This document shows, one piece after another, positions 19,869 to 50,993 of a stretch of 64,000 nt of DNA. The notes beneath the pieces are model-generated. The model saw only the letters and a program-made list of their open reading frames with translations, did no database searches and had not been told where the DNA came from. The stretch is from the NCBI RefSeq assembly GCF_003201105.1, contig NZ_QICJ01000010.1, forward strand, positions 62,001 through 126,000. Direction: 5' to 3'. This DNA is from Dyella sp. AtDHG13 (GTDB taxonomy: Bacteria; Pseudomonadota; Gammaproteobacteria; Xanthomonadales; Rhodanobacteraceae). Each line of letters starts with the position of its first letter. Position 1 is the first letter of the stretch. The translations under genes and the position numbers were made by a program.

Positions 19869-21359
19869 ATGCAAATGACGTTTACTTCGCAGCTTGCGCG
19901 TGGATGCGCCCTGGCGCTCGCGCTTGCACTGATGGCGGGCTGCTCGACCGGGCCTGCGTATGTGCGGCCATCGATGGACGTGCCGAATCAATTCAAGGAA
20001 GCCGATCGCCTGGCGCCCGGCTGGACACCGGCCCAACCGGCGGATGCCGCGATACGCGGCGCGTGGTGGCAGCTGTTCGGCGATATCACCTTGAACGGGC
20101 TCGAGGCGCGGGTGGACGCCGGCAACCAGGACATCGCCAAGGCCGTGGCCGCCCTGGAGCAGGCGAAGGCCGAGGCGGGCGTGGCGCGCTCGGCTTACTA
20201 CCCCACGATCACCGCAGGCGTGGCGGCCAATCGCAACCACACCTCGCAGAATGTCGTCGGCCGTTCCCTGGCTGGAAAAACCGTGTCCGACTTCAGCGGC
20301 GGGCTGGACGTGTCGTGGGAGCCCGACCTGTTCGGGCGCATCCGTCATCAGGTGGATGCGGCGACGGCGCGCTACCAGGCCAGCCATGCGGACCTGGCTT
20401 CGGTGCGACTGGCGATGCATGCGGAGCTTGCGCTGGACTACGTCGACCTGCGCAATGCGGACGCGCAGGCCGCGCTGCTGCAGCAGACGGTGGATGACTA
20501 CCGCCATGCACGCGATCTGGTGCAGGTGCGCGTCAAGGGCGGCATCGCCTCCCGGTCGGATCTTGCGGAAGCGGAAACGCAGTTGCAGATGGCGCAGGCG
20601 CAGTGGGTCGATCTCGGCGAAAGCCGCGCGCACTACGAACATGCCATCGCCACGCTGGTGGGCGTGCCTCCGTCTGCGCTGAACCTGCCGGCATCCACCG
20701 CGCCGATGGCATTGCCTGCCTTGCCCGTGGGCGTGCCATCGACCTTGTTGCAGCGACGGCCCGACATCGCAGCGGCGGAGCGCCGCGTCGCCGCCGCCAA
20801 TGCGGATGTGGGCGAGGCGACCTCCGCGTTCTTTCCTGACCTGCTGCTGTCGGCCACCGGCGGTTTCGAGGCATCGAACTTTGCGCAGTGGGCCGCGCTG
20901 CCCAGCCGGTTCTGGGCCATCGGCCCCGCGCTGGTGGGCACGATTTTCGATGGCGGCCGTCGCAAGCAGCAGCTCAAGTCGGCGCAGGCGAAAGAGGATG
21001 CGGCCGCGGCGGACTATCGGCAGACCGTGCTGACGGCCTTCCAGGACGTGGAAGACAACCTCGCTTCGCTGCGCGTGCTATCCGACGAGGCCAGTGTCCA
21101 GCAACGCGCCGTCGACGCCGCGCACCAGGCGGAAGTGCTCGCCATGACCCGCTACAAGGCCGGCGCCACCGATTATCTGGAGGTCGTGACGACGCAAGGC
21201 ACCAGCCTCGCGCAGCGCCGCGCCTATGACGACCTGACGCGGCGGCAACTGGAAAGCAGCATCCGCCTGATCAAGGGCCTGGGTGGCGGTTGGCAGGGCG
21301 GCGATATGCCCATGACGGCGGCAGCCGGCTCGAGGATGAAGCCGCCGGTGGACGGCTAA
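19869..21359 (+). CDS. Outer-membrane efflux lipoprotein (NodT/OprM family)
   Basis: A 496-residue TolC-like channel of the RND pump. The signal peptide ends in a lipobox (LMAGC, Cys25), followed by TGPAYVRPSMDVPNQF, typical of the NodT group. Two long helical repeats (QDIAKAVAALEQAKAEAGVARSA and the later ADYRQTVLTAFQDVEDNLASL) form the periplasmic tunnel. I chose ATG 19869, which has GGAGGACAGGGAC before it; the TTG at 19848 inside the previous stop is rejected. The end of the gene overlaps the end of the convergent folE2 gene by 4 bases. Confidence 0.92.
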   Translation: MQMTFTSQLARGCALALALALMAGCSTGPAYVRPSMDVPNQFKEADRLAPGWTPAQPADAAIRGAWWQLFGDITLNGLEARVDAGNQDIAKAVAALEQAKAEAGVARSAYYPTITAGVAANRNHTSQNVVGRSLAGKTVSDFSGGLDVSWEPDLFGRIRHQVDAATARYQASHADLASVRLAMHAELALDYVDLRNADAQAALLQQTVDDYRHARDLVQVRVKGGIASRSDLAEAETQLQMAQAQWVDLGESRAHYEHAIATLVGVPPSALNLPASTAPMALPALPVGVPSTLLQRRPDIAAAERRVAAANADVGEATSAFFPDLLLSATGGFEASNFAQWAALPSRFWAIGPALVGTIFDGGRRKQQLKSAQAKEDAAAADYRQTVLTAFQDVEDNLASLRVLSDEASVQQRAVDAAHQAEVLAMTRYKAGATDYLEVVTTQGTSLAQRRAYDDLTRRQLESSIRLIKGLGGGWQGGDMPMTAAAGSRMKPPVDG

Positions 21360-22345
21360 TCAGCGCTGTCGGGCGCACCTGAAGACCGCGGCCCGTTGGC
21401 GTATTCCCGTGATGAGCCGGAAAGACCTTTACGTTCCTTCCTCGCATGGGCCACCGCATTGTGAGGATGAAGGCTCTCCTCGTGGACGATGCGTATGTGA
21501 AAGTCGGCGATGCTGTCGTCCGCATCGAGCGCGTGCTGGACGCGCCGGGCGGCGTCCTCGCAGAACATCAGGTTGCGTCCGTTGGCCAGGGCGAAGGCCT
21601 GTTCGTCCTGGCGTTTGACGATCGTCTGCACCGGCGTCCCGAGCGACGCCTCGATGCGATCAATCAGCGCAGCCACATCCCACGCCGCGCCGCGAGCCGG
21701 GCGGATCCATACATGGGCGACACTGCGTTGCGCATGCGGTGTGGCGGGCATGCCCAGTTCGCTGCCCAGCCAGGCGGACGCGGCGCTGCCGGATATCTGG
21801 GCCGATGAAGAGAAATGCGCGTCGAAGTGCTGCCGGGCGACCTGTCTGGCGAGTGCCGCGGACGCGGGGCAGGTAGAGGAATAGGTGACGGTGGTGGCTA
21901 CCGTGACGTCCAGGCCGCGAGGGCCCAGCGTGCCTTCGATGGTGACGGGATAGACGCGCCACCCGTGATGATCGCTGCGCAATGCCTTGCGGCGCAGCGC
22001 CTGCTCGAAACGCAGGCGCAGGCGGGCGCGGTCGGCCAGCTCGTGATGCGATTGCAGGAAGGCTTGCAGCAGTTGCTCCAGCGCGTGGGTATCGAAGGGC
22101 GTATCGCCCAGGTACTCATCGATGAGGCGATACAGCCGCGACATGTGGATGCCCCGCTGATCGTCGCGGAACAGGTTGACGAAGGCATCGACGTGGCCGA
22201 TGACCTGCTGCGTCGAGCCATGGCCGGTGGCGACGCGCATGGGTATGAGGATGTCTTCCATGCCCACCCATGCCAGCGGTCCACTGGACGCGGAATCGGC
22301 GGCGACGTCGGGCATGAGGGAGAGCGGTTCGGCGATGTACTTCAC
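21356..22345 (-). CDS. folE2: GTP cyclohydrolase I, FolE2 type
   Basis: A 329-residue enzyme of the FolE2 (COG1469) family, which converts GTP to dihydroneopterin triphosphate for folate. Recognisable stretches are PLAWVGMEDILIPMR, QRGIHMSRLYRLIDEY, VTYSSTCP near residue 153, RIEASLGTPVQTIVKRQDEQAF and NLMFCEDAARRVQHALD. The family usually reads CPCS at the active-site loop; here it is CPAS (Cys159 kept, Ala161 in place of the second Cys). The C-terminal ~25 residues are low-complexity. The gene is the last in a minus-strand run after sigma, anti-sigma and protease, 30 bases from the latter. FolE2 can be a low-zinc substitute for FolE, but no Zur site was identified here. Confidence 0.88.
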   Translation of the reverse strand: MKYIAEPLSLMPDVAADSASSGPLAWVGMEDILIPMRVATGHGSTQQVIGHVDAFVNLFRDDQRGIHMSRLYRLIDEYLGDTPFDTHALEQLLQAFLQSHHELADRARLRLRFEQALRRKALRSDHHGWRVYPVTIEGTLGPRGLDVTVATTVTYSSTCPASAALARQVARQHFDAHFSSSAQISGSAASAWLGSELGMPATPHAQRSVAHVWIRPARGAAWDVAALIDRIEASLGTPVQTIVKRQDEQAFALANGRNLMFCEDAARRVQHALDADDSIADFHIRIVHEESLHPHNAVAHARKERKGLSGSSREYANGPRSSGAPDSAD

Positions 22346-22375: not shown

Positions 22376-23680
22376 TCAGCGCCGCGGCGCGCTGTGGACC
22401 TGGCCCAGCGCGCTGACGGCCGCCGCGGCGTCGACCTGTTGCGCGCCACCCACCATCCGGCTACTGCGCAGAAGCAGGTCGTGCATGTCATGGGCCTTTA
22501 GGTGCGGGGAGAGCGCGAGCAACAGCGCGACGATGCCGCTTACGTGCGCGGCGGCCATGGACGAGCCGGACGTGAAGTCGTAGGCGCCGCCGGGCTGGGT
22601 GGTCAGGATGTCGTTGCCCGGCGCGCTGAGCACGCCGGCCGGCGCAGGCGAGGCGTTGCTCACGCGCACCACGAGCACGCCGGGCGTGCTGTCGGGGAAT
22701 CCGGCGTGGCTTCCATCAGGCGGCATGGCGGCAACGACGATGCGTTGCTGGCCCAGCAGCTGTTGCAGCAGCCGGTCCAGCAAGGGGTCGGGCGGCCCGC
22801 CCAGGCTGAGGTTGATCACGCGCGCATCGGTGTCGAGGATGGCGGCAAGCGCCTTGGCCAGCGTGAAGGTATTGCAGTGCGCGCCATCGGGGCTGTTGGC
22901 GGGATACCAGCAGGCCTTGTACACGCTGATGATGGCCCGTGGCGCGATGCCGACGATGCCGAGGTGGTTGTCGCCAATCGCGCCGATGATGCCGGCGACT
23001 TCGGTGCCGTGCGGGTCGCGATTGAACGCCGGGGCATTGCCATCCACTTCATTGCTGATGTCGTGGATGCGGCCTTGCAGATCGGGATGCGAAGTATCGA
23101 CGCCGGTGTCGACGATGGCGATATGCACGCTGTCGCCCTGGCTCACGTTGTGGGCCACGGCGGCGTCCGTTTCGACGAAGCCGCGCTGCAGGTTGGCGTA
23201 GGGATCGTTGTAGGCATGCGCATTGCCCGGCGCCTGCGAATACACGCTGTAGTCCTGCAGCGGCTGCGCCAGCGCGACGCGATCGTCCTTGGCCAGCACG
23301 GCGAGCAGCTCGTCGCGCGTCATGCCGGGCGGCGGCTCGAGCACGATGCAGTACACGCTGAGCGCCTTGATGGGCCAGCCGGTCACCTCACGCCAGCCGT
23401 AGCGCTGGCGCATGGCATCGAGCGCGGAGAGGGCGCGCTGCCCCGCGCCGTAGTTCGCCGTGGGGATGTAGCCGAGCAAGGTGGAGCCGGCGTGTGTCGG
23501 CGGCGGATCCTGCGGGTTGGCGACGGCGAGCACGATGTCGCGCGCGCTGTTCATGGCGGTGACGGCGTTGCCGTTCGCGGCGGCTGGATCGGCCGCGCTC
23601 GCCGGTGGATCCGGACGCAAGGGTGCGCAAGCCCCCAGCAGGCTGGTGGCGAACAGGAGCAGCAGTACCACGTGCTTCAT
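22376..23680 (-). CDS. Subtilisin-like serine protease, lipoprotein
   Basis: A 434-residue S8-family protease. The signal peptide ends in a lipobox (LLGAC, Cys18), so it should be membrane-anchored in the periplasm or outer membrane. A propeptide-like region covers ~50-145. The catalytic triad is visible: Asp191 (IAIVDTGVD), His224 (DPHGTEVAGIIGA) and Ser374 (TSGSSMAAAHVSG). The oxyanion-hole segment, usually AAGN, reads VVAAMPPDGSHAGFP, so the usual Asn is missing. The ATG at 23680 overlaps the anti-sigma stop (ATGA), so the gene is coupled to the sigma/anti-sigma pair and may take part in that signalling path or be its target. Confidence 0.88.
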   Translation of the reverse strand: MKHVVLLLLFATSLLGACAPLRPDPPASAADPAAANGNAVTAMNSARDIVLAVANPQDPPPTHAGSTLLGYIPTANYGAGQRALSALDAMRQRYGWREVTGWPIKALSVYCIVLEPPPGMTRDELLAVLAKDDRVALAQPLQDYSVYSQAPGNAHAYNDPYANLQRGFVETDAAVAHNVSQGDSVHIAIVDTGVDTSHPDLQGRIHDISNEVDGNAPAFNRDPHGTEVAGIIGAIGDNHLGIVGIAPRAIISVYKACWYPANSPDGAHCNTFTLAKALAAILDTDARVINLSLGGPPDPLLDRLLQQLLGQQRIVVAAMPPDGSHAGFPDSTPGVLVVRVSNASPAPAGVLSAPGNDILTTQPGGAYDFTSGSSMAAAHVSGIVALLLALSPHLKAHDMHDLLLRSSRMVGGAQQVDAAAAVSALGQVHSAPRR

Positions 23681-24312
23681 GGGTTGGCGGCGACGGGCTC
23701 GGCGAGGCGGATGCCGTGCGCGGCCCGCAGTTGTCGAAGGGCCGCGTCCCCGGTGGACGTGCGCGCGGGCATCACGGTGTAGGCGCCGACGTCATTGGGG
23801 CCATCCACCACCGCCAGCTGCAGCGAGTGCAGCAGGGTGTTCCAGTCGGCGAGCTTCATGTTGGTGTCGGGAACCACGCGGATCGCGCCGGCCATGGCCG
23901 GCTGGGCCGGGTTGCTCAAGGTGCGGTACGACGCGTGGTTGCCGCCGGACGACCACAGCTCCGCGCCAAGGATGCCAATGCCCACGGCCTGCACCAGCAC
24001 CGCGGCCACCAGCGCGCGGGTGACCCAGCCGCCGGCGCGCGCGCGCGGCGCCGATGCCTCGGCTTCGCCCGCGTCGATGCGTCCCAGCAGCCGCTTGAGG
24101 CCGGCCTCGGGATCGAGCTGGATGCCGGTGGGAAGAGCCAGCGCCAGGCGCAGCCGGCTCTGCTGCGCGAACTCCTCCCGGCAGGCTTCGCAGCGCGCGA
24201 GATGGTCGGTGAGCCAGGCGCTTTGCTCCTGCGGGGCGCTGTCCTGCAATACCCAGGGCATGGCTTCCCACGCGCGGGCACAGTCCTGGTCGGTGTCTTT
24301 CGTCGACTTCAT
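23677..24312 (-). CDS. Membrane anti-sigma factor with zinc-finger motif
   Basis: A 211-residue protein with an N-terminal zf-HC2-like motif (His37, Cys41, Cys44 in DHLARCEACREEF), one transmembrane segment at about 96-118 and a periplasmic C-terminal domain of ~90 residues. This layout is that of anti-sigma factors holding an ECF sigma factor at the inner membrane. The ATG at 24312 overlaps the sigma factor stop (ATGA) and its own stop overlaps the start of the protease, so all three are coupled. The frame is open upstream, but that part lies inside the sigma gene. Confidence 0.86.
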   Translation of the reverse strand: MKSTKDTDQDCARAWEAMPWVLQDSAPQEQSAWLTDHLARCEACREEFAQQSRLRLALALPTGIQLDPEAGLKRLLGRIDAGEAEASAPRARAGGWVTRALVAAVLVQAVGIGILGAELWSSGGNHASYRTLSNPAQPAMAGAIRVVPDTNMKLADWNTLLHSLQLAVVDGPNDVGAYTVMPARTSTGDAALRQLRAAHGIRLAEPVAANP

Positions 24313-24896
24313 GGCACGCGGTTCTCTTTCGGCGTGATCGGTTCGCCTGCCAGTGCCGGCAGGATGTTGCGCAACTTCACCCTGGCGTGGAACAGCCGCG
24401 CCTTCACGGTGCCGACCGGGCATTGCATGATGGTGGCCACGTCGTCCAGCGTGTGTCCCACGCCATAGACCAGCTCCACCACCACGCGCTGATCGGCCGA
24501 CAGGCGCTCCATCGCCTTGCCCAGCCAGTCGCGCAGTTCGCGGTCTTCGCCGGGGTCGAAGGCCGGGGTGCGGTCTTCCGGCAGGCCTTCCTCGTCCACG
24601 GGTTCGTCGCCGCGCTGGCGCAGGGCCTTCAGGCCGCAGCGGTAGGTGATGCCGATGATCCAGGTCGATACCCGCGAGTCGCCGTGGAAGGAGCCGGCCT
24701 TCTGCCACACGATCCAGAAGCAGTCGTTGATGACCTCTTCGATGACGTCGTTGCGGCGCGTGAGGCGGGAAAGGAACCGGCACAGCCGGCCGTGATAGGC
24801 CCGGTACAGCGTGGCCAGCGCCGCGCGGTCTCCTGCCGCCATGCGCTGGAGCAGCAGGCGGTCCGTCTCGTCAGCATCGATGTCGGCGTATTTCAT
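24309..24896 (-). CDS. ECF RNA polymerase sigma factor
   Basis: A 195-residue sigma-70-family protein. Region 2 (residues ~18-90) includes LYRAYHGRLCRFLSRLT, EEVINDCFWIVWQKAGSF and STWIIGITYRCGLKALR. Region 4 (~125-182) includes LSADQRVVVELVYGVGHTLDDVA and CPVGTVKARLFHARVKLR. Regions 1 and 3 are lacking, as usual for ECF factors. It is the first gene of the sigma/anti-sigma/protease unit. The 64-base gap before it contains a T-rich stretch and TTACCGGGTAACA, but no promoter could be assigned with confidence. The signal and regulon are unknown. Confidence 0.92.
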   Translation of the reverse strand: MKYADIDADETDRLLLQRMAAGDRAALATLYRAYHGRLCRFLSRLTRRNDVIEEVINDCFWIVWQKAGSFHGDSRVSTWIIGITYRCGLKALRQRGDEPVDEEGLPEDRTPAFDPGEDRELRDWLGKAMERLSADQRVVVELVYGVGHTLDDVATIMQCPVGTVKARLFHARVKLRNILPALAGEPITPKENRVP

Positions 24897-24960
24897 GGCT
24901 GAGGCGAAGGCAGGGTGTTACCCGGTAAGTGCCCTAAAAAGCCCAAATGGTTGCCTAGGC

Positions 24961-25915: not shown

Positions 25916-26314
25916 TCAGTGGTTCGACTGCAGGTACGCGATGAGATCGTCCAGCTGCCTGGCGTCGTCGAGCCCCGGGTACTTCATCTTGGTGCCAGGG
26001 TTGGCCTGCTTGGCCGGCTGGGACAGATACCAGTGCAGCTTGTCCTCGGTCCACACCCAATCGGCGTTCTTCAGCGCATCGGAATAACTGTAGTCGGCGA
26101 TGCTGCCCGCATGGCGGCCCACGATGCCGAACAGGCTGGGGCCTTTCTTGTTGTGTCCTTGCCGCGTGGTGTGGCACTCGGCGCATTCCTGCTTGAATAC
26201 GTCCGCACCGGCGCCGGCATCGCCCGCACGCGCGGGCAGGGCATGCGCGCCACAGCACAGCATCATCGTCATCACGGCGCCGCGCGCCGCTCTCCCCAGC
26301 TTGGGTTCAATCAC
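25916..26314 (-). CDS. Periplasmic monoheme class I cytochrome c
   Basis: A 132-residue cytochrome c from the GTG at 26314. It has a signal peptide (hydrophobic 13-25, ALPARA cleavage) and a heme-attachment motif CAECH at residues 44-48. The fold continues with GPSLFGIVGRHAGSIADYSYS and DKLHWYLSQP, and the axial Met110 is in GTKMKYPG. The text matches small soluble class I cytochromes. I chose GTG 26314 because GGAG stands ahead of it and it follows the previous stop by 19 bases; a TTG at 26344 would overlap the previous gene. It probably shuttles electrons between the barrel-fused cytochrome and an inner-membrane partner. Confidence 0.88.
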   Translation of the reverse strand: MIEPKLGRAARGAVMTMMLCCGAHALPARAGDAGAGADVFKQECAECHTTRQGHNKKGPSLFGIVGRHAGSIADYSYSDALKNADWVWTEDKLHWYLSQPAKQANPGTKMKYPGLDDARQLDDLIAYLQSNH

Positions 26315-26333
26315 GTCCAGGCTCCGTCGGGTG

Positions 26334-27662
26334 TCAGAACGCAACGCTTGCGCTCAAGGTAAAGGCATCGAGGTCTTTCGCTTGGGTCATGAGCGCACCC
26401 GGCGGCGCGCCGAAGATGTTGTCGCTCACGCCGTTGAAGCGCGTGAAGCGGAACCAGGTGGCGGCGATCTTCAGGTTCGCTTTCGAGGTGAACGAATCGT
26501 CCTTGCCGAACGGCGTCCAGTACAGGCTGATCAGGTTGGCCGTGCTGTCCGGCTTGCCGTAGGGCGGGTAGCGTGCCGGGTCCTGCGTGCCGGTGCTCAC
26601 CAGGTGCGCCACCTGCAGGGCATAGCTCTGCTTGAAGGTGTAGGTCACGCTGAGCGTGCGGTCGTGCGCATCGCCGTGCGACTTGGCGACCAGCCCGTTG
26701 ATGGTGGGCGCGCTGCCGTAGTCCCGCTGCTCCAGGATGTTCACGTAGCTGACCTGCACGATGTGCTCGCGATTGCCCAGGAACTGATACGTGAGGTCGT
26801 AGCCGAGGTCGGTGATGTCGTCGCTGCGCGCATTGCGCGGCAGCTGGCGCCGGGTGGTGAGCGCCACCAGGCCCGCGGAGAAGAACTGCCGCTTCATGTC
26901 CTTCATATAGGCAAAGCGGAAGTAGCCCGTGTCGCTGAGCTTGCCGGGGTCGCCGGAGACGTTGTAGCCCAGGTGATCCTGCACCGAGGTCGGCATGGCG
27001 TTGTAGCTGCCGATCTCGCCGTACCAGTTGTCGTCGTAGAGCGCATACACGCCACCGCCGATCACCCGGTTGTACAGCGAGTTGGGGCTGGACAGGTTCA
27101 GCAGCGTGCCGGATATGGCCGGCGGCCCGAGCGTCGACGCGTTGGGCAGGGCCGCGATGGGGTCGTCGAAGCCGGGGCTGTTGTTGACGCTCACGCCGAT
27201 CACGGCGTCCTTGCCGGCGATCTTCAGGTCCTTGGCCACGAAGCGCAGGTCGAGGTTGCTGAGCTTGGTGCTGAATTGATCCTTGCCGTTGTTGTCCGTC
27301 TCCACCTTGACGAAGCCGCCGAGGTGGTCGCTGATGCGGCCGGCCAGATAGATGTCCGCTTCCGTGAGCTGCGTGGTGTTGTCGCCGCGCTCGGGCACCG
27401 TGCGCGTACCGATTAGCTGCGCCGCCACCGGAATCTTGGTGCCCTGGCCATCCGTGTCGGTATAGCCGTTGAGCTTGAAGCGCATGCCATAGGGCGTCAG
27501 CGCGGGACCATAGGCGCCGGCGTGGCAGTCCGCGCAGGCGGAGCCCGTCTGGCGTGCATAGGCCGGCACCGCATGCGCGCTGTTGCCGGCCATCATCAAC
27601 AGTGCGGCGACGAGCGCACAAGCGGCGCACAATGGCCAATGGCGGGTCAGGGCAGACGGCAT
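26334..27662 (-). CDS. Cyc2-like monoheme cytochrome/outer-membrane porin fusion
   Basis: A 442-residue exported protein with signal peptide ~1-31. Immediately after it, at residues 32-65, comes a monoheme domain: VPAYARQTGSACADCH (CXXCH at 43-47) and then LTPYGMRFKLNGYTDTDG. The remaining ~375 residues have the alternating strand pattern of a large beta-barrel (e.g. GGFVKVETDNNG, LDLRFVAKDLKIAG, YALQVAHLVSTGT) and end in FTLSASVAF with a terminal Phe. A heme motif within an 'ARQTG' context fused to a barrel is the architecture described for Cyc2 iron oxidases and related porin-cytochromes. The ATG at 27662 has AGGAGA before it; an ATG at 27689 that overlaps the b561 stop (ATGA) is an alternative. 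Iron as substrate is not shown. Confidence 0.78.
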   Translation of the reverse strand: MPSALTRHWPLCAACALVAALLMMAGNSAHAVPAYARQTGSACADCHAGAYGPALTPYGMRFKLNGYTDTDGQGTKIPVAAQLIGTRTVPERGDNTTQLTEADIYLAGRISDHLGGFVKVETDNNGKDQFSTKLSNLDLRFVAKDLKIAGKDAVIGVSVNNSPGFDDPIAALPNASTLGPPAISGTLLNLSSPNSLYNRVIGGGVYALYDDNWYGEIGSYNAMPTSVQDHLGYNVSGDPGKLSDTGYFRFAYMKDMKRQFFSAGLVALTTRRQLPRNARSDDITDLGYDLTYQFLGNREHIVQVSYVNILEQRDYGSAPTINGLVAKSHGDAHDRTLSVTYTFKQSYALQVAHLVSTGTQDPARYPPYGKPDSTANLISLYWTPFGKDDSFTSKANLKIAATWFRFTRFNGVSDNIFGAPPGALMTQAKDLDAFTLSASVAF

Positions 27663-27685
27663 GAGATCTCCTGGTCTCGAAATAT

Positions 27686-28303
27686 TCATCGGCGGCGGCG
27701 CGGCAGCATCAGGCGCAAGGTGCGATCGCGCAGCATGAAGTGATGCCACAGCGCGGCGGCGACATGCAGCGCGATCAGGGCAAGCAGCACCCAGGCGACA
27801 CCCTGGTGCCAGTCGGTGAGGCGGTCGGCGAGGTCTTCGTCGCTGGCGACGATGGCGGGCAGCGTGAGTCCGAAGAAATGCACCGGCTTGCCTTGCGCAT
27901 TGCTGAGCGCCCAGCCGAGCAGGGGCTGGACCAGCAGCAGCACATACAAGGCCAGATGGGTCGAGCCGGCGGCGAAACGGATCAAGGGCGACACCTTGCC
28001 CTCGACCGGCCAATGGCGCAGCCGCAGGCGCAGCGCCGCGCGCGCAAAGAACAGCAGCAGCACCAGCAATCCGAAGTGGCGGTGGCCTTCCAGCAGCCAC
28101 ATGCGCAGCGCGCGGCCGTCCACCTCGTCACGCAACAGGATGAGCGCGGCCGCCATCGCCAGGAACAGCGCCGTCAGCCAGTGCATGACCACCAGCGCGC
28201 GCGGGCGCTCCGGCAGCTCATCGCCCTGGGCGCCGCGCTCCATGGCGGATGCACGCGCGCCGTCGTCGCCTGTCGCCGATGGGCTCTTGTTCTGCCATTC
28301 CAT
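27686..28303 (-). CDS. Cytochrome b561, inner membrane
   Basis: A 205-residue protein with four predicted membrane helices and the His pattern of prokaryotic di-heme cytochrome b561: VVMHWLTALFLAMAAALIL, RHFGLLVLLLFFARAALRL, STHLALYVLLLVQPLLGW and TDWHQGVAWVLLALIALHVAAALWHHF (shown in parts). The N-terminal 35 residues are polar and probably cytoplasmic. Such proteins pass electrons between quinones and periplasmic carriers. It is the first gene of the b561 - porin-cytochrome - cytochrome c unit; AGAGGTTCGTAC precedes the ATG. Its stop overlaps a possible upstream start of the next gene. Confidence 0.9.
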   Translation of the reverse strand: MEWQNKSPSATGDDGARASAMERGAQGDELPERPRALVVMHWLTALFLAMAAALILLRDEVDGRALRMWLLEGHRHFGLLVLLLFFARAALRLRLRHWPVEGKVSPLIRFAAGSTHLALYVLLLVQPLLGWALSNAQGKPVHFFGLTLPAIVASDEDLADRLTDWHQGVAWVLLALIALHVAAALWHHFMLRDRTLRLMLPRRRR

Positions 28304-28540
28304 GTACGAACCTCTATGCCGCGCCTCTGCGGTTCACGCGATCCGCGCGCCCATCGGTTCCGCAAGGGAAGGGATGGCTGCGAGAGGCAAGCCTGCGTTG
28401 TGGCGTGAGTGCCGGGTCCGCCCGGAAAGGTTGTGCGGACGCGTGGTCACAGGAAAGTGACGTCACGCAACCTTGTGCGCGATGGATGGCACTCAGTGCC
28501 TAGAGTCCCTGATGACGACTCCATCCGCCGGGCCGAGAGC
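28304..28540. promoter_or_regulatory. Divergent region, b561 / polysaccharide locus
   Basis: These 237 bases separate the minus-strand electron-transfer genes and the plus-strand polysaccharide locus. Promoters for both should lie here. I saw no coding sequence of its own and no -35/-10 pair that I would defend. TGGCAC near 28488 recalls half of a sigma-54 site, but the second half is missing. Confidence 0.4.
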
Positions 28541-28978
28541 ATGGAAATCGAACGCGTTCAATTGCAGAAGCATGGGGACCACGGCGGCATGCTCATCGCC
28601 CTGGAACAGGACATCAACGTGCCCTTCGTGATCCGTCGCGTGTACTACATCTTCGCGACGCAGCGCGACGTGCATCGCGGCAAGCACGCCCACCGCCATC
28701 TGCACCAGCTGGCCGTGGCGGTGCGCGGGTCGGTGACCATCCTGCTCGACGACGGCTCGGGGCCGGTCGAGGTGGTGCTCAACGATCCGTCCCAGGGCCT
28801 GCTGCTTGGCTGCATGGTGTGGCGCGAGCTGTACGACTTCAGCGACGACTGCGTGCTGATGGTGCTGGCGGACCATCTCTACGACCCCGCCGACTACATC
28901 ACCGATTACGACGTGTTCCTCAGCGAGGTGAAAGGCCTTGCCTATCCCGGTGGGCTGGTGGCATGCCAAAGCGTCTAG
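28541..28978 (+). CDS. dTDP-sugar 3,4-ketoisomerase (FdtA/QdtA-like cupin)
   Basis: A 145-residue single-domain cupin of the WxcM-like/FdtA family. These enzymes convert dTDP-4-keto-6-deoxyglucose to the 3-keto form before C3 amination. Characteristic text is INVPFVIRRVYYIF, the RGKHAHRHLHQLAVAVRGSV metal/active-site stretch and GLLLGCMVWRELYDFS. The start at 28541 was chosen because upstream in-frame codons do not fit the family. With the aminotransferase at 31507 and the acyltransferase that overlaps its 3' end, it forms a three-gene set for a 3-acylamino-3,6-dideoxyhexose (Fuc3NAc or Qui3NAc type). The stereochemistry (FdtA versus QdtA) cannot be told here. Confidence 0.87.
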   Translation: MEIERVQLQKHGDHGGMLIALEQDINVPFVIRRVYYIFATQRDVHRGKHAHRHLHQLAVAVRGSVTILLDDGSGPVEVVLNDPSQGLLLGCMVWRELYDFSDDCVLMVLADHLYDPADYITDYDVFLSEVKGLAYPGGLVACQSV

Positions 28979-29628
28979 TCCTGATCGGCGCGGGCGAACT
29001 GGCGCAGATCGCCTGCGAATATTTCGAGCACGACAGCGACTACGAGGTCGCCGCTTTCAGCGTCGAGAGCCCCTACCTGAGCGAGACCGAGCTGGCTGGC
29101 CGGCCGGTGGTTCCGTACGAGCTGCTGGAGGCGCTCTATCCGCCGGCGCAGTTCGAGGCCTTCGTGGCCATTCCGGCGAGCCAGCTCAATCGCCTGCGTG
29201 CGCGGCTTTATCTGGACGCGAAATCGCGAGGCTACCGCCTGGCGACCTACGTGAGCTCGCGCGCCTTCGTGTGGCGCAACGCCGAGATCGGCGAGAACAG
29301 CTTCATCTTCGAGAACAACGTGATCCAGCCGTTCGTGCGCATCGGCAACAACTGCATCCTGTGGAGCGGCAACCACGTCGGGCATCGCACGGTGATCCGC
29401 GACCATGTGTTCGTGGCCTCGCACGCCGTCATCTCCGGCTATTGCGACGTGGGCGAGAGCAGCTTCATCGGCGTCAACACCACGTTCAACGACCACGTGA
29501 AGGTGGCGTCGGACAACGTGATCGGCTCCGGCGCGCTGGTTCACCGCGACACGGAGCCGGGCAAGGTCTACGTGGGCTCGCCGGCCAAGGCCGTGCCGGG
29601 GCGATCCAGCTTCGACGTGAGGCTCTGA
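28963..29628 (+). CDS. Left-handed beta-helix sugar N-acyltransferase
   Basis: A 221-residue protein with a PglD-like N-terminal Rossmann domain (MPKRLVLIGAGELAQIACEYF). A left-handed parallel beta-helix of hexapeptide repeats follows (AEIGENSFIFENNVIQPFVRIG, NHVGHRTVIRDHVFVASHAVI, in parts), and the C-terminus reads GKVYVGSPAKAVPGR. It likely acylates the 3-amino group of the dTDP-sugar made by its neighbours (FdtC/QdtC role). The start overlaps the ketoisomerase gene by 16 bases in another frame. The acyl donor is probably acetyl-CoA, but other acyl groups are possible. Confidence 0.85.
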   Translation: MPKRLVLIGAGELAQIACEYFEHDSDYEVAAFSVESPYLSETELAGRPVVPYELLEALYPPAQFEAFVAIPASQLNRLRARLYLDAKSRGYRLATYVSSRAFVWRNAEIGENSFIFENNVIQPFVRIGNNCILWSGNHVGHRTVIRDHVFVASHAVISGYCDVGESSFIGVNTTFNDHVKVASDNVIGSGALVHRDTEPGKVYVGSPAKAVPGRSSFDVRL

Positions 29629-30582
29629 ATGCCCATGGCAACGTGGCGCAAGCACGGGCTGATCTTCGATACCGCGCGCCAGGGCGTGGGCGGATGGATG
29701 CGCCATTCGGCGCTCACGCCGACGCCCTGGCGCATGGACGAGGCGACCATCCGCGTCTACGCGGGTTTTCGTAACGATGAAGGCGTAAGCCGCATCGGCT
29801 ACGTGGACGTGCTGGCGGAAGACCCGAGCGTGATCCTGCGCGTGAGCCGGCAGCCCGTGCTCGATGTGGGGCGAGGCGGCTGCTTCGACGACAACGGCAT
29901 GATCCTGGGCGACGTGGTGGACGCGCCCGGCGGGCTTCATCTGTTCTATGTCGGCTTTCAACAGGTGGCGCGCGCCAAGTTCCTCGCCTTCACCGGGCTG
30001 GCCATTTCCACCGATGGCGGCGAGCATTTCGAGCGGGTGCAGGAGACGCCCATCCTCGACCGCGCGCCTGGACGCAGCACCATCGCAGCCGTGCACACCG
30101 CCATGTTCGATGGAGCCCAGTGGCGCCTCTGGTATGCGGTGGGCGACGACTGGGAATGGATAGACGGGCGGCCCTTTCCGCGCTACCACATCCGCTGCGT
30201 CACCACGCGCGATCTCACGGACATTCCCCGCGACGACCGTATCTGCCTGCTGCCGCGAAACAGCGAGTACCGCATTGGCCGCCCGCGCGTGTACCGGATG
30301 GGCGACGGCTACGCGATGCTCTTCACACGGGGCAACGTCACGGGTGAATACCTCCCGGGCATGGCTTTCAGCGACGACGGGCTCGCCTGGGTGCGCAGGG
30401 ACGAAGCGCTGGACATCGGGCTTTCCCGTGACGGCTGGGACTCGCGCACGCTCTGCTATCCCGCCCTGATACCGCGCGGCGACGACGTGCTGATGTTCTA
30501 CAACGGCAACGACATGGGACGGGATGGTTTTGGCGTCGCCGTGGCGCGCCAGCCCTTGTTCCAGGAGGCGGCCCATGCTTGA
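29629..30582 (+). CDS. Five-bladed beta-propeller, glycosidase-like protein
   Basis: A 317-residue soluble protein with no signal peptide. It has repeating blade elements such as RVYAGFRNDEGVSRIGYVDV, GGLHLFYVGFQQV, TGLAISTDGGEHFERV, QWRLWYAVGDDW, YAMLFTRG and VLMFYNGNDMGRDGFGVAV. This resembles GH43/GH32/GH130-type propellers. Which carboxylates are catalytic is not clear, so activity is unproven. The ATG follows the preceding TGA directly. Such genes sometimes accompany polysaccharide loci; here it might trim or bind the repeat unit. Confidence 0.6.
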   Translation: MPMATWRKHGLIFDTARQGVGGWMRHSALTPTPWRMDEATIRVYAGFRNDEGVSRIGYVDVLAEDPSVILRVSRQPVLDVGRGGCFDDNGMILGDVVDAPGGLHLFYVGFQQVARAKFLAFTGLAISTDGGEHFERVQETPILDRAPGRSTIAAVHTAMFDGAQWRLWYAVGDDWEWIDGRPFPRYHIRCVTTRDLTDIPRDDRICLLPRNSEYRIGRPRVYRMGDGYAMLFTRGNVTGEYLPGMAFSDDGLAWVRRDEALDIGLSRDGWDSRTLCYPALIPRGDDVLMFYNGNDMGRDGFGVAVARQPLFQEAAHA

Positions 30583-31507
30583 GGTTCGCCGCTACCAGCC
30601 GTCGGACGCCAAGGCCTGGGATGCTGTCGTGGAGCGTTCGCGCAATGGCAATTTCCTGCATCGGCGTGGCTACATGGATTATCACGCCGACCGTTTTGCC
30701 GATTGCTCGCTGCTGGTGGAGCGAGGCTCGGAGATCGTCGCAGTGTTTCCCGCCAACCTTCGCGACAACGTGGTCAGCAGCCACGGCGGGCTCACCTATG
30801 CCGGCCTTATCGCGACGCATGAACTGCGCACCGACGCCACATTGCAGGTGTTCGAGCTGATCGGCGAGCACTACCGGCGCAGCGGCGTCGAGCGCGTGAT
30901 CTACAAGCCAGTGCCGCACGTCTTCCATGCGTATCCCGCCGAGGAGGATCTCTACGCGCTCCAGCGCGTCGGCGCACGCCTGAGCCGGCGAGATATCTCG
31001 TCGGTGATCCCGTTGCGCCGCGCCGCGGGGTTCTCCGCTACGCGCTGCAGGGCGATCCGGCGGGCCGAAAGCGCGGGCGTGAGCATCGGACAGGGGCGTG
31101 ACCTGGCGGCCTTCCATGCCTTGCTGAGCGAGGTCCTGCGTCGCCACCAGGCCGTACCGACGCACAGCGCTGCGGAACTCTTCCTGCTGCAGTCGCGATT
31201 TCCCGGGCAGATCGTGCTGCATGAGGCACGCGGCGAGGGCCAGCTGTTGGCCGGGGTGCTGGTCTACGATTTCGGTCGAACGGTGCACGCCCAGTACATC
31301 GCCGCGTCGGAAGAGGGCTGGCGCGTCGATGCGCTGAGCCTGCTGCTTGGCGCACTGGTGAGCGACGTGTATGCCGAGCGCGGCTACTTCAGCCTGGGCA
31401 TCTCCACCGAACAGGACGGCACCGTGCTCAACAGCGGCCTGGTGGCGCAGAAGGAATCCTTCGGTGCGCGCGGCGTCGTGCAGGACTTCTACGAGTGGGT
31501 ACTGTGA
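30575..31507 (+). CDS. GNAT/FemAB-like transferase
   Basis: A 310-residue cytoplasmic protein. The text [23 protein letters not shown] and [15 protein letters not shown] at the N-terminus, and [20 protein letters not shown] with [20 protein letters not shown] at the C-terminus, is that of FemAB/GNAT-fold proteins found in surface polysaccharide loci. It likely transfers an acyl or aminoacyl group to a sugar intermediate; substrate unknown. It overlaps the propeller gene by 8 bases and its stop overlaps the next start (TGATG). Confidence 0.7.
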
Positions 31508-32619
31508 TGGAGGTGCCCTTCCTTTCGCTGCGCGACGTCAACGCGTGCTACGGCGACGAACTCAAGACGGCCGCGGCCAGGGTGATCGATTCCGGCTGGT
31601 ACGTGATGGGTGACGAGCTGGCGGCATTCGAGCGCGAGTTCGCCGCTTACTGCGGCGTAGCGCATGCGCTCGGCGTGGGCAACGGCCTGGACGCGCTCGC
31701 GCTGATCCTGCGCGGCTACAAGGAGATGGGGCGGTTGCGCGATGGCGACGAGGTCATCGTGCCGGGCAACACCTTCATCGCTACCTTCCTTGCCGTGACG
31801 GCCAATCAGCTGGTGCCCGTGCCGGTCGAGCCGGATCCGTCGACCTTCAACATCGATCCGTCGCACGTCGAGGCCGTACTGAGCCCGCGCACGCGCGCGA
31901 TCATGCCGGTGCACCTGTACGGCCAGCTGGCGGACATGGACGCCCTGGCCGATATCGCCCGCCGACGCGGCCTGCTGCTGATCGAGGACGCCGCCCAGGC
32001 ACATGGCGCAAGCTGCGGCGGCCGTCGCGCCGGGGCCTTTGGCGGTGCCGCCGGCTTCAGCTTTTTCCCGACTAAGAATCTGGGCGCTCTGGGCGATGGC
32101 GGCGCCGTGGTCACGGCCGACGACGAACTCGCCGCGCGCGTGGCGGCACTGCGCAACTACGGATCGGAGGCGAAATACCACCACCTGTACCAGGGCCTCA
32201 ATTCACGACTGGACGAAATGCAGGCGGCCCTGCTGCGGGTCAAGCTCGGCCATCTCGACGACGAGACGGCGAAGCGGCGGCACGTGGCGCGGCGCTATCG
32301 CGAGGGCATCCGCCACCCGCAAATCCTGTTGCCGGCGGTGCCGGCGGAAGAGGCGCACGCCTGGCACCTCTTCGTGGTGCGCTCCGCGCGGCGCGATGCG
32401 CTGAAGGAGCACTTGGCCGCCCATGGCGTGCAGAGCCAGGTGCACTATCCCGTGCCGGCGCATCGCCAGCCGGCGTATCCCTCGCTGCACGGCATCGAGC
32501 TGCCGCTGACCGATCGCTTGCACCGCGAGGTGCTGAGCCTGCCGATCAGTCCGGTGATGAGCGAAGATGCCATGGCGCGCGTCATCGATGCCTGCAATGC
32601 GTTCGGTTGTGCGCCATGA
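31507..32619 (+). CDS. DegT/DnrJ/EryC1 sugar aminotransferase (FdtB/QdtB-like)
   Basis: A 370-residue PLP enzyme. The family text is [16 protein letters not shown], the [22 protein letters not shown] cap (in parts), [27 protein letters not shown] and the PLP-lysine Lys190 in [16 protein letters not shown]. It most likely aminates C3 of the dTDP-3-keto-6-deoxyhexose made by the ketoisomerase at 28541, because 3-aminotransferases of the FdtB/QdtB type accompany that enzyme. I chose the ATG at 31507, overlapping the previous stop, over the GTG four codons upstream. Confidence 0.9.
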
Positions 32620-33866
32620 ACATCGCGCGCGCCGGCATCTACGCCTCGATAGCCACGGCCGCCAAGCTGCTTGCCGGCCTGGTGATCGTCAAGCTGGTGG
32701 CCTGGATGGCCGGCCCCGAAGGCGTGGGGCGGCTGGGCCAGTTCATGAGCCTGATGTCGGTGCTGGCCGTGCTCGCTGGCGGCGGCATCAGTGCGGGCGT
32801 GGTGAAGTACGTGGCGGAGTATCGCGACGATCCGCACAGGTTGTCCCTCCTGCTGGGCGCCGCGCTGTGGTACGCGCTATGCGCATCGTGCCTGGTCGGC
32901 GTCATCGGCTTGCTGCTCAGCCGGCAGATCGCGGGCTGGCTGCTGGGCGACGTTCGCTACTGGGGCCTTGTCGTCGTGCTTGCCGCGGTGCAGACGGGCA
33001 TTGCCATGGCGAACTACGTCCTTGCCGTGATCAACGGTTTCATGGACGTGAAGCGCCTGGCCTGCATCCAGGTATTGGGCTCGCTGCTGAGCGTGGCAGT
33101 GGCCTTGTGCTTGGCGCGCTGGCTGCAGCTGTATGGCGTGTTGCTGGCGCTGGTGGTCGGACAGCTGCTCGTGCTTGCCGTGGGGCTTCCCGCGTGGTGG
33201 CGCAGCCCGTACTTCAGTCGGCACATGCTGCGCCTGCGCTTCGACCGCGAGATGACGTGGCGGCTGGCCGCATTCTCCGTGATGACGCTGACCTCGGCGC
33301 TGCTGCCACCGCTGGTGAACATCGCCGTGCGCGATCATCTGGCCGCCCGGTTCGGGTGGGAACACGTGGGCTATTGGCAGGCGGTAGGCAAGGTGTCGGA
33401 TGCCTATCTGCTGTTCCTCACCACGGCGATCAACGTGTACTACCTGCCCAAGCTGGCCTCGACGCATGCGCGCGAATCGCTGGTGGCGGAGCTTCGTCTG
33501 GCCTACCGCTACGTGATGCCGGCGGTGGTGCTTCTTGCCGTGGGCGTCTACCTGTGCCGCGGCTGGGTGACCCTGCTGCTTTTCAGCGATGGCTTCGCGG
33601 CGGCCAATGCGCTGTATGCGCCGCAACTGATGGGCGATGTCGTGAAGATCGCCTCCTTTGTGCTGTCGTACGTGATGCTGGCCAAGGCCATGACGGGCTT
33701 GTTCGTGGTGTCCGAAATCGTCTTCGCGATCAGCTACGTGCTGCTGGTGTTCCTGCTCACCGCGCGCTTCGGGTTGGTGGGCGCGATGTATGCGTTCGCG
33801 CTGAACTATGCGCTTTACCTGGTTTTCAACGTGATCGTCGTGCGGCGCTACCTGGGGGAAGTATGA
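32616..33866 (+). CDS. wzx: Wzx-type flippase
   Basis: A 416-residue integral membrane protein with about 12 predicted helices, starting [23 protein letters not shown] (in parts) and containing [38 protein letters not shown] (in parts). This is the start typical of the Wzx/WzxE group of the MOP exporter superfamily. It should flip the undecaprenyl-linked repeat unit across the inner membrane. The start overlaps the aminotransferase stop as ATGA and its stop overlaps the next start in the same way. The middle loop with [22 protein letters not shown] is also WzxE-like. Confidence 0.87.
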
Positions 33867-39009: not shown

Positions 39010-39707
39010 TGCTGCACACGCCGATGCTCGACCCCGCCGAGGCCTATGCGCTGTGGGCGCCCAGCTATCCGCCGCGCGCACACAATCCCGTGATGCTGGC
39101 GGAGGAGCGGGCCATGCTCGCGCTGTTGCCGCAAGACCTGAGCGGCCGCAATGTGCTGGACGCGGGCTGTGGCACCGGCCGCTACATGCATCATGCCCTG
39201 CAGCGCGGCGCGGCGCGGCTGCTGGGCGTGGATCTGTCGCGCGACATGTTGCTGCGCGCCGACACCGAGCTGCGCAGCGAGCGCAGGCGCGTGCCGCTGG
39301 AGCTTCTGCAGGGCGGCCTGGATGCCTTGCCCGTGGCCGATGCCTGGGCCGACCTGGTGGTCTGCGGACTGGCCGTGGGCCATGTCGAGCAACTCGAGCC
39401 GGTGCTGGCGGAGCTCAGTCGCGTCACGCAGCCGGGCGGCATGGTGTTGTGCAGCGACGTGCATCCCATCGGGCACGCGCTGGGCTGGCTGCGCGACTTC
39501 AAGGCCGAAGGCCGCCGCTACGCCGTGCGCCACACCGCACACCTCTACAGCCATTGGCATGCCGCCTGTGCCGCGCTGGACCTGGAGATCGGCTGCGTGC
39601 TCGAACCCATGATCGATCCGGCGGACATCCCGGCAGGCGCGCATTTCGATCCCGCCGCGCTGGATGTGCCGGTGGCGCTGGTCTTTCAGCTGTGGCGCAG
39701 GCCATGA
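39009..39707 (+). CDS. Class I SAM-dependent methyltransferase
   Basis: A 232-residue methyltransferase with NVLDAGCGTGRYMHHALQRG (motif I), LLGVDLSRDMLLRA, ADLVVCGLAVGHVEQLEPVL and VTQPGGMVLCSDVHPIG. It resembles UbiE/COQ5-type small-molecule methyltransferases. Start overlap with the amidohydrolase (TGATG) and stop overlap with the radical SAM gene (ATGA) show it belongs to one translation-coupled set. Substrate unknown. Confidence 0.86.
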   Translation: MLHTPMLDPAEAYALWAPSYPPRAHNPVMLAEERAMLALLPQDLSGRNVLDAGCGTGRYMHHALQRGAARLLGVDLSRDMLLRADTELRSERRRVPLELLQGGLDALPVADAWADLVVCGLAVGHVEQLEPVLAELSRVTQPGGMVLCSDVHPIGHALGWLRDFKAEGRRYAVRHTAHLYSHWHAACAALDLEIGCVLEPMIDPADIPAGAHFDPAALDVPVALVFQLWRRP

Positions 39708-41242
39708 CTTTGCCCATACACGTTCCCGCCAGCCGTAGGCCGCATACGCTGCTGGTCAATCCCACCATCACCTCGCGTGCCAGCGCGCGCTTTCCGCTGT
39801 CGTTGCTCCACCTGTCCGCGACGCTCGATCGCACTGGCAGCAGCCGCATCATCGACGGCAACGTGGATCGCGACTTCATCGCGCGCACGCTCCATGCGCT
39901 GGACGAGCGCCCGTGCAGCGCCGTCGGCATCAGCGTGATGGGCGGGCCGCAGGTAGAGCCGGCCATCGCCGTGTCGCGCGCCATTCGCGCGCAACGTCCC
40001 GACGTGCCCATCGTGTGGGGCGGCTACTTTCCCACGCTGTATACCGGCACTGCGCTGTCCGCACCCTATGTGGACTATGCGATACGCGGGCAAGGCGAAG
40101 ACAGCCTGCCGGAACTCGTCGCTGCGCTGCATGCCGGCAACACGGCCGGTCTGGCGGCGATCCAGGGTCTGTCGTGGAAGGATGTTGGCGGCACGGTACA
40201 CAACCCGAGTCGGCCGTTCTCGCGCAGCGGCCCGCCGGTCTTGCTGCCTTACGAAAAGCTGGGCGATCCCCGCCGTTACCTCGCGCGCACCTTTCTCGGC
40301 CGCCGCACGGCGGCGCACCAGGCGTCAGTGGGATGCCGCTTCCGCTGCACGTTCTGCGGCGTGGCCGCCATGTTCGGCGGCGCTACCGCGTTGCCGCCCT
40401 TGGCGCGGCTGGAGCGGGATCTGGCCTATCTCAAGCATGGCCTTGGCGCCGACTCCATCCAGTATTTCGACCACAACTTCTTCGACCGCGAGCAGGACAT
40501 GATCCCGCTGCTGGAAATCATGGCCCGCCATGAGCTGCCGTGGTGGTGCTACGCACGCGCGGATGCCTTGCTCAATCTGTCCGAGAGCACGTGGAAGCTG
40601 GTGCGCAAGAGCCGCCTGCGCATGGCCTACATCGGCGCGGAGTCGCCCAGCCCGGCCATGCTGAAGGAGATCCGCAAGGGCACGCGGCCGGACCAGACGC
40701 TGGCCGTGGCGGAGCTGTGCCGGCGCCACGGCGTGATCCCGGAGCTGTCCTTCATGGTGGCGCCGCCGGAGAACACCGAGGAGGAAACCGAGCATACGTT
40801 CGAGTTCATCCGCGAGCTAAAGCGCATCAATCCGCAGTCGGAGATCATCGTCTACGTCTACACGCCGCTGCCCGAGAGCAGCCGTCACGAGAAGGACCGG
40901 CATCGCCGGCCTTCCACGCCGCTGCTCGATCTCAACGGGGAACCCGTGGTGTTTCCCGCGACGCCGGAGGAGTGGACGCAGAAGCGCTGGGTGGATTACG
41001 CCTGCCACGCGGATGCGCCGTGGGTGAGCGACAGGCTGCGTCAACGCATCCACGATTTCGTGACCGTGCTGCGCTGCCGTTACCCCACGGTGCAGGACCT
41101 GCGCTCGCCGCCGTGGGCGAAGCGCACGCTGGCCGCGGCGGCATCGTGGCGTTACCGGTTGCGCCGCTACGACCGCCCGTGGGAGCTGAATCTGGCGAAT
41201 CGGCTGGTGCGCTTGCGCATGCCGCAGGTTTCGGGACTCTGA
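39704..41242 (+). CDS. B12-binding-type radical SAM protein
   Basis: A 512-residue protein with an N-terminal cobalamin-binding-like Rossmann domain (residues ~14-145: LLVNPTITSRASARFPLSLL, AVGISVMGGPQVEPAI, VPIVWGGYFPTLYTG). A radical SAM domain follows, with the 4Fe-4S motif Cys211-X3-Cys215-X2-Cys218 (SVGCRFRCTFCGVAAMFG) and FMVAPPENTEEETEHTFEFI. This is the class B/BchE-like layout; members methylate unactivated carbon or phosphinate centres, or rearrange rings. In this locus it might C-methylate a sugar or lipid, but that is inference. Translation is coupled to the preceding methyltransferase. Confidence 0.87.
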   Translation: MTLPIHVPASRRPHTLLVNPTITSRASARFPLSLLHLSATLDRTGSSRIIDGNVDRDFIARTLHALDERPCSAVGISVMGGPQVEPAIAVSRAIRAQRPDVPIVWGGYFPTLYTGTALSAPYVDYAIRGQGEDSLPELVAALHAGNTAGLAAIQGLSWKDVGGTVHNPSRPFSRSGPPVLLPYEKLGDPRRYLARTFLGRRTAAHQASVGCRFRCTFCGVAAMFGGATALPPLARLERDLAYLKHGLGADSIQYFDHNFFDREQDMIPLLEIMARHELPWWCYARADALLNLSESTWKLVRKSRLRMAYIGAESPSPAMLKEIRKGTRPDQTLAVAELCRRHGVIPELSFMVAPPENTEEETEHTFEFIRELKRINPQSEIIVYVYTPLPESSRHEKDRHRRPSTPLLDLNGEPVVFPATPEEWTQKRWVDYACHADAPWVSDRLRQRIHDFVTVLRCRYPTVQDLRSPPWAKRTLAAAASWRYRLRRYDRPWELNLANRLVRLRMPQVSGL

Positions 41243-46197: not shown

Positions 46198-46262
46198 CTT
46201 GGAAGGATCTCCGTCGTTGCCGTTGGGCGAGCTGCTCCGGCGCATCCACGGCAGGTCGGCGA

Positions 46263-50872: not shown

Positions 50873-50993
50873 GGCCCGACGAAATCCGCAGCAAGAAGCG
50901 AGGAGCGGCTTCCCGCGCCAAGCTCAACGGACCCTGCGTGAGTGCCTGGTTGGCGGCGTCAGGTTGCGACCGTTGGTGCATTCGCCTCCATGC

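Follow-up and report, generated by a model that had tools for sequence, protein, structure and literature searches.

What role could a Cyc2-like porin-cytochrome have in bacteria that are not known to live on iron? Cyc2 homologs are present in many bacteria not known to oxidize iron, and their role there has been posed as a question (Keffer 2021, PMC8406198; He 2017, PMC5566968; all papers are cited here from excerpts). Moreover, genetic tests in iron oxidizers are described as challenging (Keffer 2021, PMC8406198). Here, we address this question for a locus in a stretch of 64,000 nucleotides from Dyella sp. AtDHG13 (GCF_003201105.1, contig NZ_QICJ01000010.1, positions 62,001 to 126,000 of the forward strand), which we refer to as the window and in whose coordinates positions are given. 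In an earlier sequence-only reading, three adjacent genes of this window, for a cytochrome b561, a Cyc2-like porin-cytochrome and a cytochrome c, had been described as an electron path from quinone to the cell surface. Based on the conserved gene order, on the barrel and heme motifs, on a shared promoter-like element and on an alternative cassette, all of which were computed directly, we suggest that the locus probably encodes a trans-envelope electron conduit that is controlled by an extracytoplasmic function (ECF) sigma factor and has exchangeable outer-membrane modules.

A Cyc2-like porin-cytochrome between cytochrome b561 and cytochrome c

The three genes are adjacent on the minus strand, and their reading frames are all open where the sequence-only reading had placed them. 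The first codes for a cytochrome b561 (P0002, 27686..28303; PF01292, E 1.9e-21), likely the quinone-side, di-heme partner in the inner membrane; the second codes for the Cyc2-like protein (P0001, 26334..27662); and the third codes for a periplasmic class I (mitochondrial-type) cytochrome c (P0003, 25916..26344; PF00034, E 5.3e-9), which as called has a TTG start and an 11-base overlap with the 3' end of the porin gene. The claim of a single heme motif at the N-terminus of the barrel protein also held: P0001 has 442 residues and, by eye, a signal-like N-terminus, followed by AVPAYARQTGSACADCHAGAYGPALTPYGMRFKLNGY and a single CxxCH at residues 43-47. P0001 thus has one CxxCH near the mature N-terminus and a length of at least 365 residues, as used to recognize Cyc2. 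The hallmarks of Cyc2 are the sequence AXPXFAR[Q/K][T/Y], a CXXCH, a PXL four residues on and a 16-strand barrel (Keffer 2021, PMC8406198). The window protein resembles this description in its one CxxCH at the mature N-terminus, the AxPx(F/Y)ARQT context, a PxL after the heme motif, a predicted 16-strand barrel and a length of more than 365 residues (Keffer 2021, PMC8406198).

P0001 has no family match in Pfam or NCBIfam at E 0.1, and against the PDB its sequence gave just two weak matches (E 0.62) and an alignment search one weak, N-terminal match (E 0.016). The barrel itself is evident in the AlphaFold2 model, for which 16 strands are listed (mean pLDDT 85.7, pTM 0.83), as had been expected from the sequence. 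This model was based on 61 aligned sequences, i.e. the window protein and 60 of 69 named proteins. Helices at residues 35-39, 43-46 and 57-64 are located around the heme motif, N-terminal to the strands. In a Foldseek search, the model matched general porins, with 206 matches at E <=0.001, OmpT being the best (E 9.5e-10), and with TM-scores of 0.29-0.62 among the 50 matches listed. The named proteins are from 80 named loci, which are the best 80 of at least 582 confirmed relatives; extraction by motif and start rule gave no protein for 11 of these 80 loci and none for 5 of the 30 loci L151-L180.

A profile built from 25 family members matched proteins of a large family, f39, mostly across the N-terminal third of the profile. 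The f39 proteins have the motif AIPAFARQTG..C..CHF, and the f39 rows resemble Zetaproteobacteria and are taken here to represent the neutrophilic iron oxidizers. In a 93-row tree made with a quick method, from which 7 of the 69 named proteins were left out, the window protein is within a set of 19 rows (SH-aLRT 100), every one of which has b561, and this set is separate from the f39 rows and from the clade containing Thiomonas sp. FB-6. Judged from motif, predicted fold and tree, the window protein is Cyc2-like in the sense that it is homologous to Cyc2 and has the same build. The family also has at least two other, distant Cyc2-like types (L045-L050 and L034-L044), which differ in the residues near the heme motif or in their spacing; in these stretches, no b561 was assigned to the same family. 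In Uliginosibacterium gangwonense, a second Cyc2-like gene (L112:9123-10610) is close to the first.

Conservation of the locus

A P0001 homolog is present in 113 of 197 family genomes. Among ortholog loci, b561, the Cyc2-like protein, cytochrome c and the putative outer-membrane porin TorF all match in 30 of 30 loci, these being the best matches, with the window's own locus included, rather than a random draw. In the named loci L071-L092, which span Luteibacter, Dyella, Rhodanobacter, Xanthomonas, a metagenome-assembled genome (MAG) of Lysobacterales and a MAG contig labelled Eremiobacteraeota, these four genes together with a sigma factor and an anti-sigma factor gene are present in all 22 loci. 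An S8 peptidase gene is found in 21 of the 22, the contig of the remaining locus ending there, and FdtA is found in 21 of 22; folE2 is less constant (5/22), the stretches stopping soon after S8. Outside this group, the association weakens. In L093-L114, mostly from betaproteobacteria, b561 is present in 13 and cytochrome c in 20 of 22 loci without the sigma set, and in L115-L150, b561 is present in 0/36 and cytochrome c, located upstream, in 5/36.

The expectation that b561 and cytochrome c would be conserved neighbors was thus borne out. The sequence-only reading had also regarded b561 as an unusual partner. This stands in comparison with published models for iron oxidizers, which have bc1 or alternative complex III, whereas in the clade of the window protein, to judge from these loci, the b561 partner is the rule. 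In the Xanthomonas loci L085, L088 and L090, the genes 3' of S8 resemble, by eye, ccmC, ccmE and ccmF for cytochrome c maturation.

Cytochrome b561 and cytochrome c

The sole solved structure matched by P0002 is that of E. coli cytochrome b561 (5OC0, E 1.7e-21), a superoxide oxidase with described site residues (PMC11869295). In an alignment of 36 b561 sequences from the trio, all 36 keep the four heme His residues as well as the quinone-site residues H158 and D164, and 35 keep H87; equivalents of these residues are present in P0002. The cationic site is kept in part. R30 is present in 35/36, the R35 and R38 positions have R or K in 32 and 33 proteins, respectively, and P0002 keeps all three; by contrast, R108 and K134 are not conserved among the 36 and are replaced by Q and T in P0002. 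From these residues, a quinone site in b561 is likely and superoxide oxidation doubtful. Because two of the five cationic-site residues are not kept, P0002 is not classed as a superoxide oxidase. P0002 therefore resembles E. coli CybB (5OC0) in family, heme ligands, quinone-site residues and R30, and differs from it in the lack of R108 and K134 and in that its gene belongs to an operon that also encodes cytochromes and a heme barrel.

P0003 has its best solved matches in yeast cytochrome c, in a CcoP-fused cytochrome c and in cytochrome c2. The genome has five matches to heme-copper oxidase (COX1).

An ECF sigma factor gene and a shared promoter-like element

The sequence-only reading was correct about the three genes and left out the remainder of the locus, which extends past the trio with genes for TorF, sigma factor, anti-sigma factor, S8 peptidase and folE2 downstream and with shared promoter-like elements. 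All five genes are on the minus strand. The TorF-family putative outer-membrane porin (P0004, 24961..25734) matches TIGR02001 with 49.8 bits (cut-off 47.15), and its match to PF09694 is just below cut-off. The ECF sigma factor gene (24309..24896) matches PF08281 and PF04542, both above cut-off, and overlaps by 4 bases the gene for a putative zinc-finger anti-sigma factor (23677..24312), which has a PF13490 zf-HC2 match under cut-off (17.7 bits; cut-off 22.2) and, by eye, an Hx3Cx2C motif. The S8 (subtilase) peptidase (22376..23680; PF00082, E 2.3e-32) has a lipoprotein-like N-terminus by eye, and folE2, for a type I GTP cyclohydrolase (21356..22345; PF02649, E 4.9e-70), is the last gene of the sigma run. 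From b561 to folE2, the intergenic spacings are 23, -11, 181, 64, -4, -4 and 30 bases. Of the features of an ECF system, sigma regions 2 and 4 and an element before the sigma gene are present here, and the adjacent anti-sigma match is below its cut-off.

This element, RCAACCWT-N14-GCACTY, has three exact matches in the 5.1-Mb genome, all at this locus, compared with one for the reversed-pattern control. The first is before the sigma gene (24927..24954, minus strand), ending 30 bases from the start codon; the second is before b561-cyc2 (28407..28434, minus strand), ending 103 bases from b561; and the third points toward a divergent surface-glycan cluster (28467..28494, plus strand), ending 46 bases from the FdtA-like gene. 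When one mismatch is allowed, 5 sites are found in the window versus 0.16 expected, and 0 of 100 shuffles reached 5. A looser form of the element, again with up to one mismatch, has 68 sites in the 22 named loci L071-L092 (286 kb) versus 4 in the 58 others (666 kb), and 2 sites in one letter shuffle of the 22 loci, these counts not being independent since the looser form was composed after the b561-FdtA spacers of these loci had been viewed. By contrast, the genome-wide uniqueness had not been viewed beforehand, nor had the sites that precede sigma in the 22 loci. Of the 68 sites, 65 fill the three expected places, such that 65 of 66 expected places are occupied; the sole unfilled place is the glycan side of L082, where the FdtA gene was not found. 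Position and conservation suggest that the sigma factor reads the shared element and, through the copy before its own gene, would be autoregulated. In the open-access literature searched, we found nothing on ECF control of cyc2 or on a cyc2-b561 operon.

The divergent surface-glycan cluster starts at 28541 on the plus strand (28541..33866), the ATG of the FdtA-like gene having been placed there by eye. It begins with genes for an FdtA-like isomerase, a hexapeptide acyltransferase, an unmatched protein, a GNAT protein, a DegT aminotransferase and a polysaccharide flippase (families PF05523, PF00132, PF13480, PF01041 and PF01943). The glycan region also has two B12-binding radical SAM genes (39692-41242, plus strand; 44719-46245, minus strand). 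Farther along the window, one-mismatch elements precede an ABC transporter gene (element at 47441-47468, plus strand; gene at 47567) and a methyltransferase gene (element at 50940-50967, minus strand; gene start at 50872), and a 3432-residue open frame (52847-63145, plus strand) perhaps codes for a large surface protein.

Alternative cassettes at the outer-membrane slot

An anti-sigma ortholog is present in 75 of the 197 family genomes, including all 51 that have a Cyc2 ortholog, and 24 genomes have the anti-sigma ortholog without this Cyc2; these three counts depend on ortholog limits of at least 51% identity for anti-sigma and at least 57% for Cyc2, placed at visible gaps. Nineteen of the 24 were inspected. 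In 12 of these 19, a cassette of genes for a decaheme cytochrome, an MtrB/PioB porin and a diheme cytochrome is located in or beside the slot near sigma that Cyc2 occupies in the window, i.e. upstream of TorF or sigma in nine (FdtA in view in six) and just downstream of S8/folE2 in three. For L202, L204 and L209, the FdtA side is outside the stretch, and in L208 TorF was not detected. In four of the five uninspected genomes, anti-sigma and decaheme genes are within ~7 kb of each other on one contig. By family matches, this MtrAB/MtoAB/PioAB-type conduit is unrelated to Cyc2.

The L199 cassette illustrates the arrangement. Its decaheme cytochrome has 10 CxxCH motifs and matches TIGR03508 above cut-off, and its porin matches PF11854 MtrB_PioB (E 3.3e-74), with TIGR03509 under its cut-off. 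The slot consists of the three cassette genes, with no outer multiheme gene. With a decaheme cytochrome next to an MtrB/PioB porin, this is the MtoAB/PioAB type, and MtoAB/PioAB systems without an outer multiheme gene, as in the L199 slot, have been described (He 2017, PMC5566968). In five loci (L199, L200, L209, L210 and L211), the decaheme gene is directly preceded by the shared element.

A decaheme gene is present somewhere in the genome in 24/24 genomes with anti-sigma and without this Cyc2 versus 8/51 with Cyc2 (Fisher 4e-13, uncorrected for kinship). This co-occurrence is partly due to unlinked cassettes, because in 18 cassettes (L214-L231) that are off the sigma locus or in a genome without an anti-sigma ortholog, no exact element precedes the decaheme gene (0/18); one-mismatch sites were found before the decaheme gene in L219 and inside the gene in L217. 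The idea that every decaheme genome has a sigma-controlled cassette was rejected on these grounds. Fifteen of these cassettes (L214-L228), which are unlinked to sigma and have no exact element, are in genomes that also have the sigma locus. In the window's own genome, there is no MtrAB/MtoAB/PioAB-type decaheme match at E 1e-20.

In a 38-row tree of anti-sigma, which covers 20 of the 51 genomes with Cyc2 and 19 of the 24 without it, minus L056, which has no match in its stretch, the Cyc2 label needs eight changes, at least five of which are forced by the starred branches; the slot therefore seems to have been exchanged repeatedly. The association also extends to weaker sigma homologs. Both loci inspected (L232 and L233) have a single run of genes for sigma, anti-sigma, S8, decaheme, porin and diheme, and an element close to the start of sigma. 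Among the 28 genomes in which the sole anti-sigma match is a weaker one, 9 have it ~1.4-1.5 kb from a decaheme gene. L232 also has two cupredoxin-like genes, one (12232-13117; by eye) near the sigma/decaheme run with an element before it and the other (4641-5042) inside the run.

Discussion

We suggest a model in which the sigma factor couples a conduit across the envelope to the cell surface; electron flow, its direction and the action of the sigma factor on the element are what we infer from the arrangement described above. In this model, an electron donated from outside, for example by dissolved Fe(II), would enter at the heme of the Cyc2-like barrel, and the class I cytochrome c would carry this electron to one of the heme-copper oxidases or exchange it with quinone via b561. 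The anti-sigma factor would hold the ECF sigma factor, which upon release would act through one element on its own operon, the electron path and the surface-glycan cluster. The conduit slot in the outer membrane would be exchangeable and hold Cyc2, the decaheme cytochrome with MtrB/PioB porin and diheme cytochrome, or nothing, and TorF would be a second outer-membrane porin. The sequence-only reading had proposed that this lineage can exchange electrons with an external donor or acceptor. Its conduit part is supported, and the MtrAB/MtoAB/PioAB-type cassette at the same slot argues for it independently; the electron transfer itself, its direction and the outside partner stay at the level of suggestion that they had in that reading.

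Several observations weigh against this model. The window motif AVPAYARQT has Y in place of the F of the Cyc2 consensus and, because the sequence set of Keffer 2021 (PMC8406198) required PXFAR[Q/K][T/Y], the window copy would fail this strict filter, which is why we refer to it as Cyc2-like; the Xanthomonas orthologs (~59% identity) have F at this position, and several sequences from Burkholderia, Ralstonia and Xanthomonas, as highly sampled genera, were removed from that set (Keffer 2021, PMC8406198). In the window's CADCH-AGAYG-PAL, PXL follows after five residues, i.e. one more than published; in most homologs listed, this spacing is 3 to 5. The window's Cyc2 clade is on a long stem away from the zeta-like clade, in a tree whose rows include no protein of tested function. 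With regard to control by sigma, sites with up to one mismatch number 8 in the whole genome versus 5 for the control, such that those beyond the three exact sites are near chance and were discounted. In 4 of the 12 cassette loci (L197, L202, L204 and L208), the cassette is oppositely oriented and without the element. Among the empty-slot genomes, in six of seven of which decaheme loci elsewhere were inspected, no exact element precedes the decaheme gene, and there is one one-mismatch site. As for energetics, a b561 with a quinone site on the cytoplasmic side is better suited to oxidizing quinol or superoxide than to passing electrons uphill from a high-potential cytochrome c to quinone. Finally, there is no RuBisCO match in the genome; any gain from uptake would therefore be energy or detoxification and not Calvin-cycle autotrophy.

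This lack of RuBisCO also fits a possible, though less probable, reading in which electrons are exported from quinol via b561, cytochrome c and the Cyc2-like barrel to an outside acceptor such as oxidized metals or radicals, as an overflow or a reducing shield of the surface. The kept heme His, H158, D164 and H87 residues of b561 agree with export; this direction is energetically easier for b561, and the step from quinol to a cytochrome c of class I runs downhill. However, three tested representatives of Cyc2 oxidize Fe(II) (Keffer 2021, PMC8406198), and the alternative conduit in the L199 slot follows the Mto/Pio layout, with no outer multiheme gene, which tips the balance toward uptake. We therefore slightly favor uptake, in which electrons from dissolved Fe(II) or another outside reductant would pass via cytochrome c to a heme-copper oxidase, over export from quinol. 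It is quite unlikely that no electrons are exchanged with the outside and that the heme segment is a structural plug or a sensor, with a sigma regulon for upkeep of envelope and glycan. This would agree with the finding that, among the 19 sigma loci inspected that lack this Cyc2, 7 have an empty slot (only a spacer between the glycan genes and TorF or, in L203 and L206, which we counted as empty, a weak cytochrome c match of 28 and 54 bits), yet keep TorF and the element along with most glycan genes. These loci weigh against the conduit model as well, and because the slot is empty despite sigma and the element, the sigma factor must have a further role. However, the cytochrome c gene directly follows the barrel gene and is conserved, decaheme conduits also occupy the slot, and sigma homologs run with such conduits in L232 and L233. 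Least likely among these readings is a defense against oxidative stress, in which b561 would move electrons from superoxide to quinone and cytochromes and sigma would form an envelope response to reactive oxygen. The E. coli protein matched by b561 and the largely kept R30, R35 and R38 speak for this reading, and a b561-lipocalin pair is known as a peroxyl-radical defense (PMC9113575). On the other hand, besides the loss of R108 and K134, superoxide could be oxidized without a cytochrome c or a heme barrel, and this reading does not account for the replacement by a decaheme conduit.

The conduit model has parallels in known systems. Unlike in iron oxidizers, Cyc2 is here partnered by b561 and a class I cytochrome c, is linked to sigma and is apart from the zeta-like clade. 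In the Acidithiobacillus rus operon (cyc2-cyc1-cup-cox-rus), cyc2 similarly adjoins a cytochrome c gene (PMC10654088); in the window, however, the place of the oxidase genes is taken by b561, and the genes for sigma, anti-sigma and S8 come next. LcoA-BcnA similarly has a b561 that is operon-linked to an exported partner, which in that case is a lipocalin without heme, the likeness being one of description only (PMC9113575). Both conduit types are also known from Thiomonas, in which two Fe(II)-oxidizing strains have Cyc2-like genes and FB-6 and FB-Cd have MtoAB (He 2017, PMC5566968). With respect to the glycan cluster, it has been proposed that iron oxidizers avoid Fe(III) crusts by templating on polysaccharide (PMC8250860). 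As a guess by analogy, a glycan cluster under the same element would fit templating of Fe(III) on polysaccharide.

Thus, the locus couples a Cyc2-like gene to a fixed quinone-side partner, to a regulator in the same locus that comes with a defined DNA element, and to a natural swap with the other textbook conduit. The sigma factor may give a genetic handle on Cyc2-like function, in carriers that include strains of Dyella, Luteibacter and Rhodanobacter, and the locus is suited to testing the roles of conduits in bacteria not known to live on iron. We tentatively speculate that heterotrophic Lysobacterales, including plant-associated Xanthomonas, could have a dedicated regulon for extracellular electron transfer in which one ECF sigma factor would control conduit and surface glycan, the Cyc2 and MtoAB/PioAB types would interchange, and the glycan may catch Fe(III) at the surface, like the stalk polysaccharides proposed for iron oxidizers.

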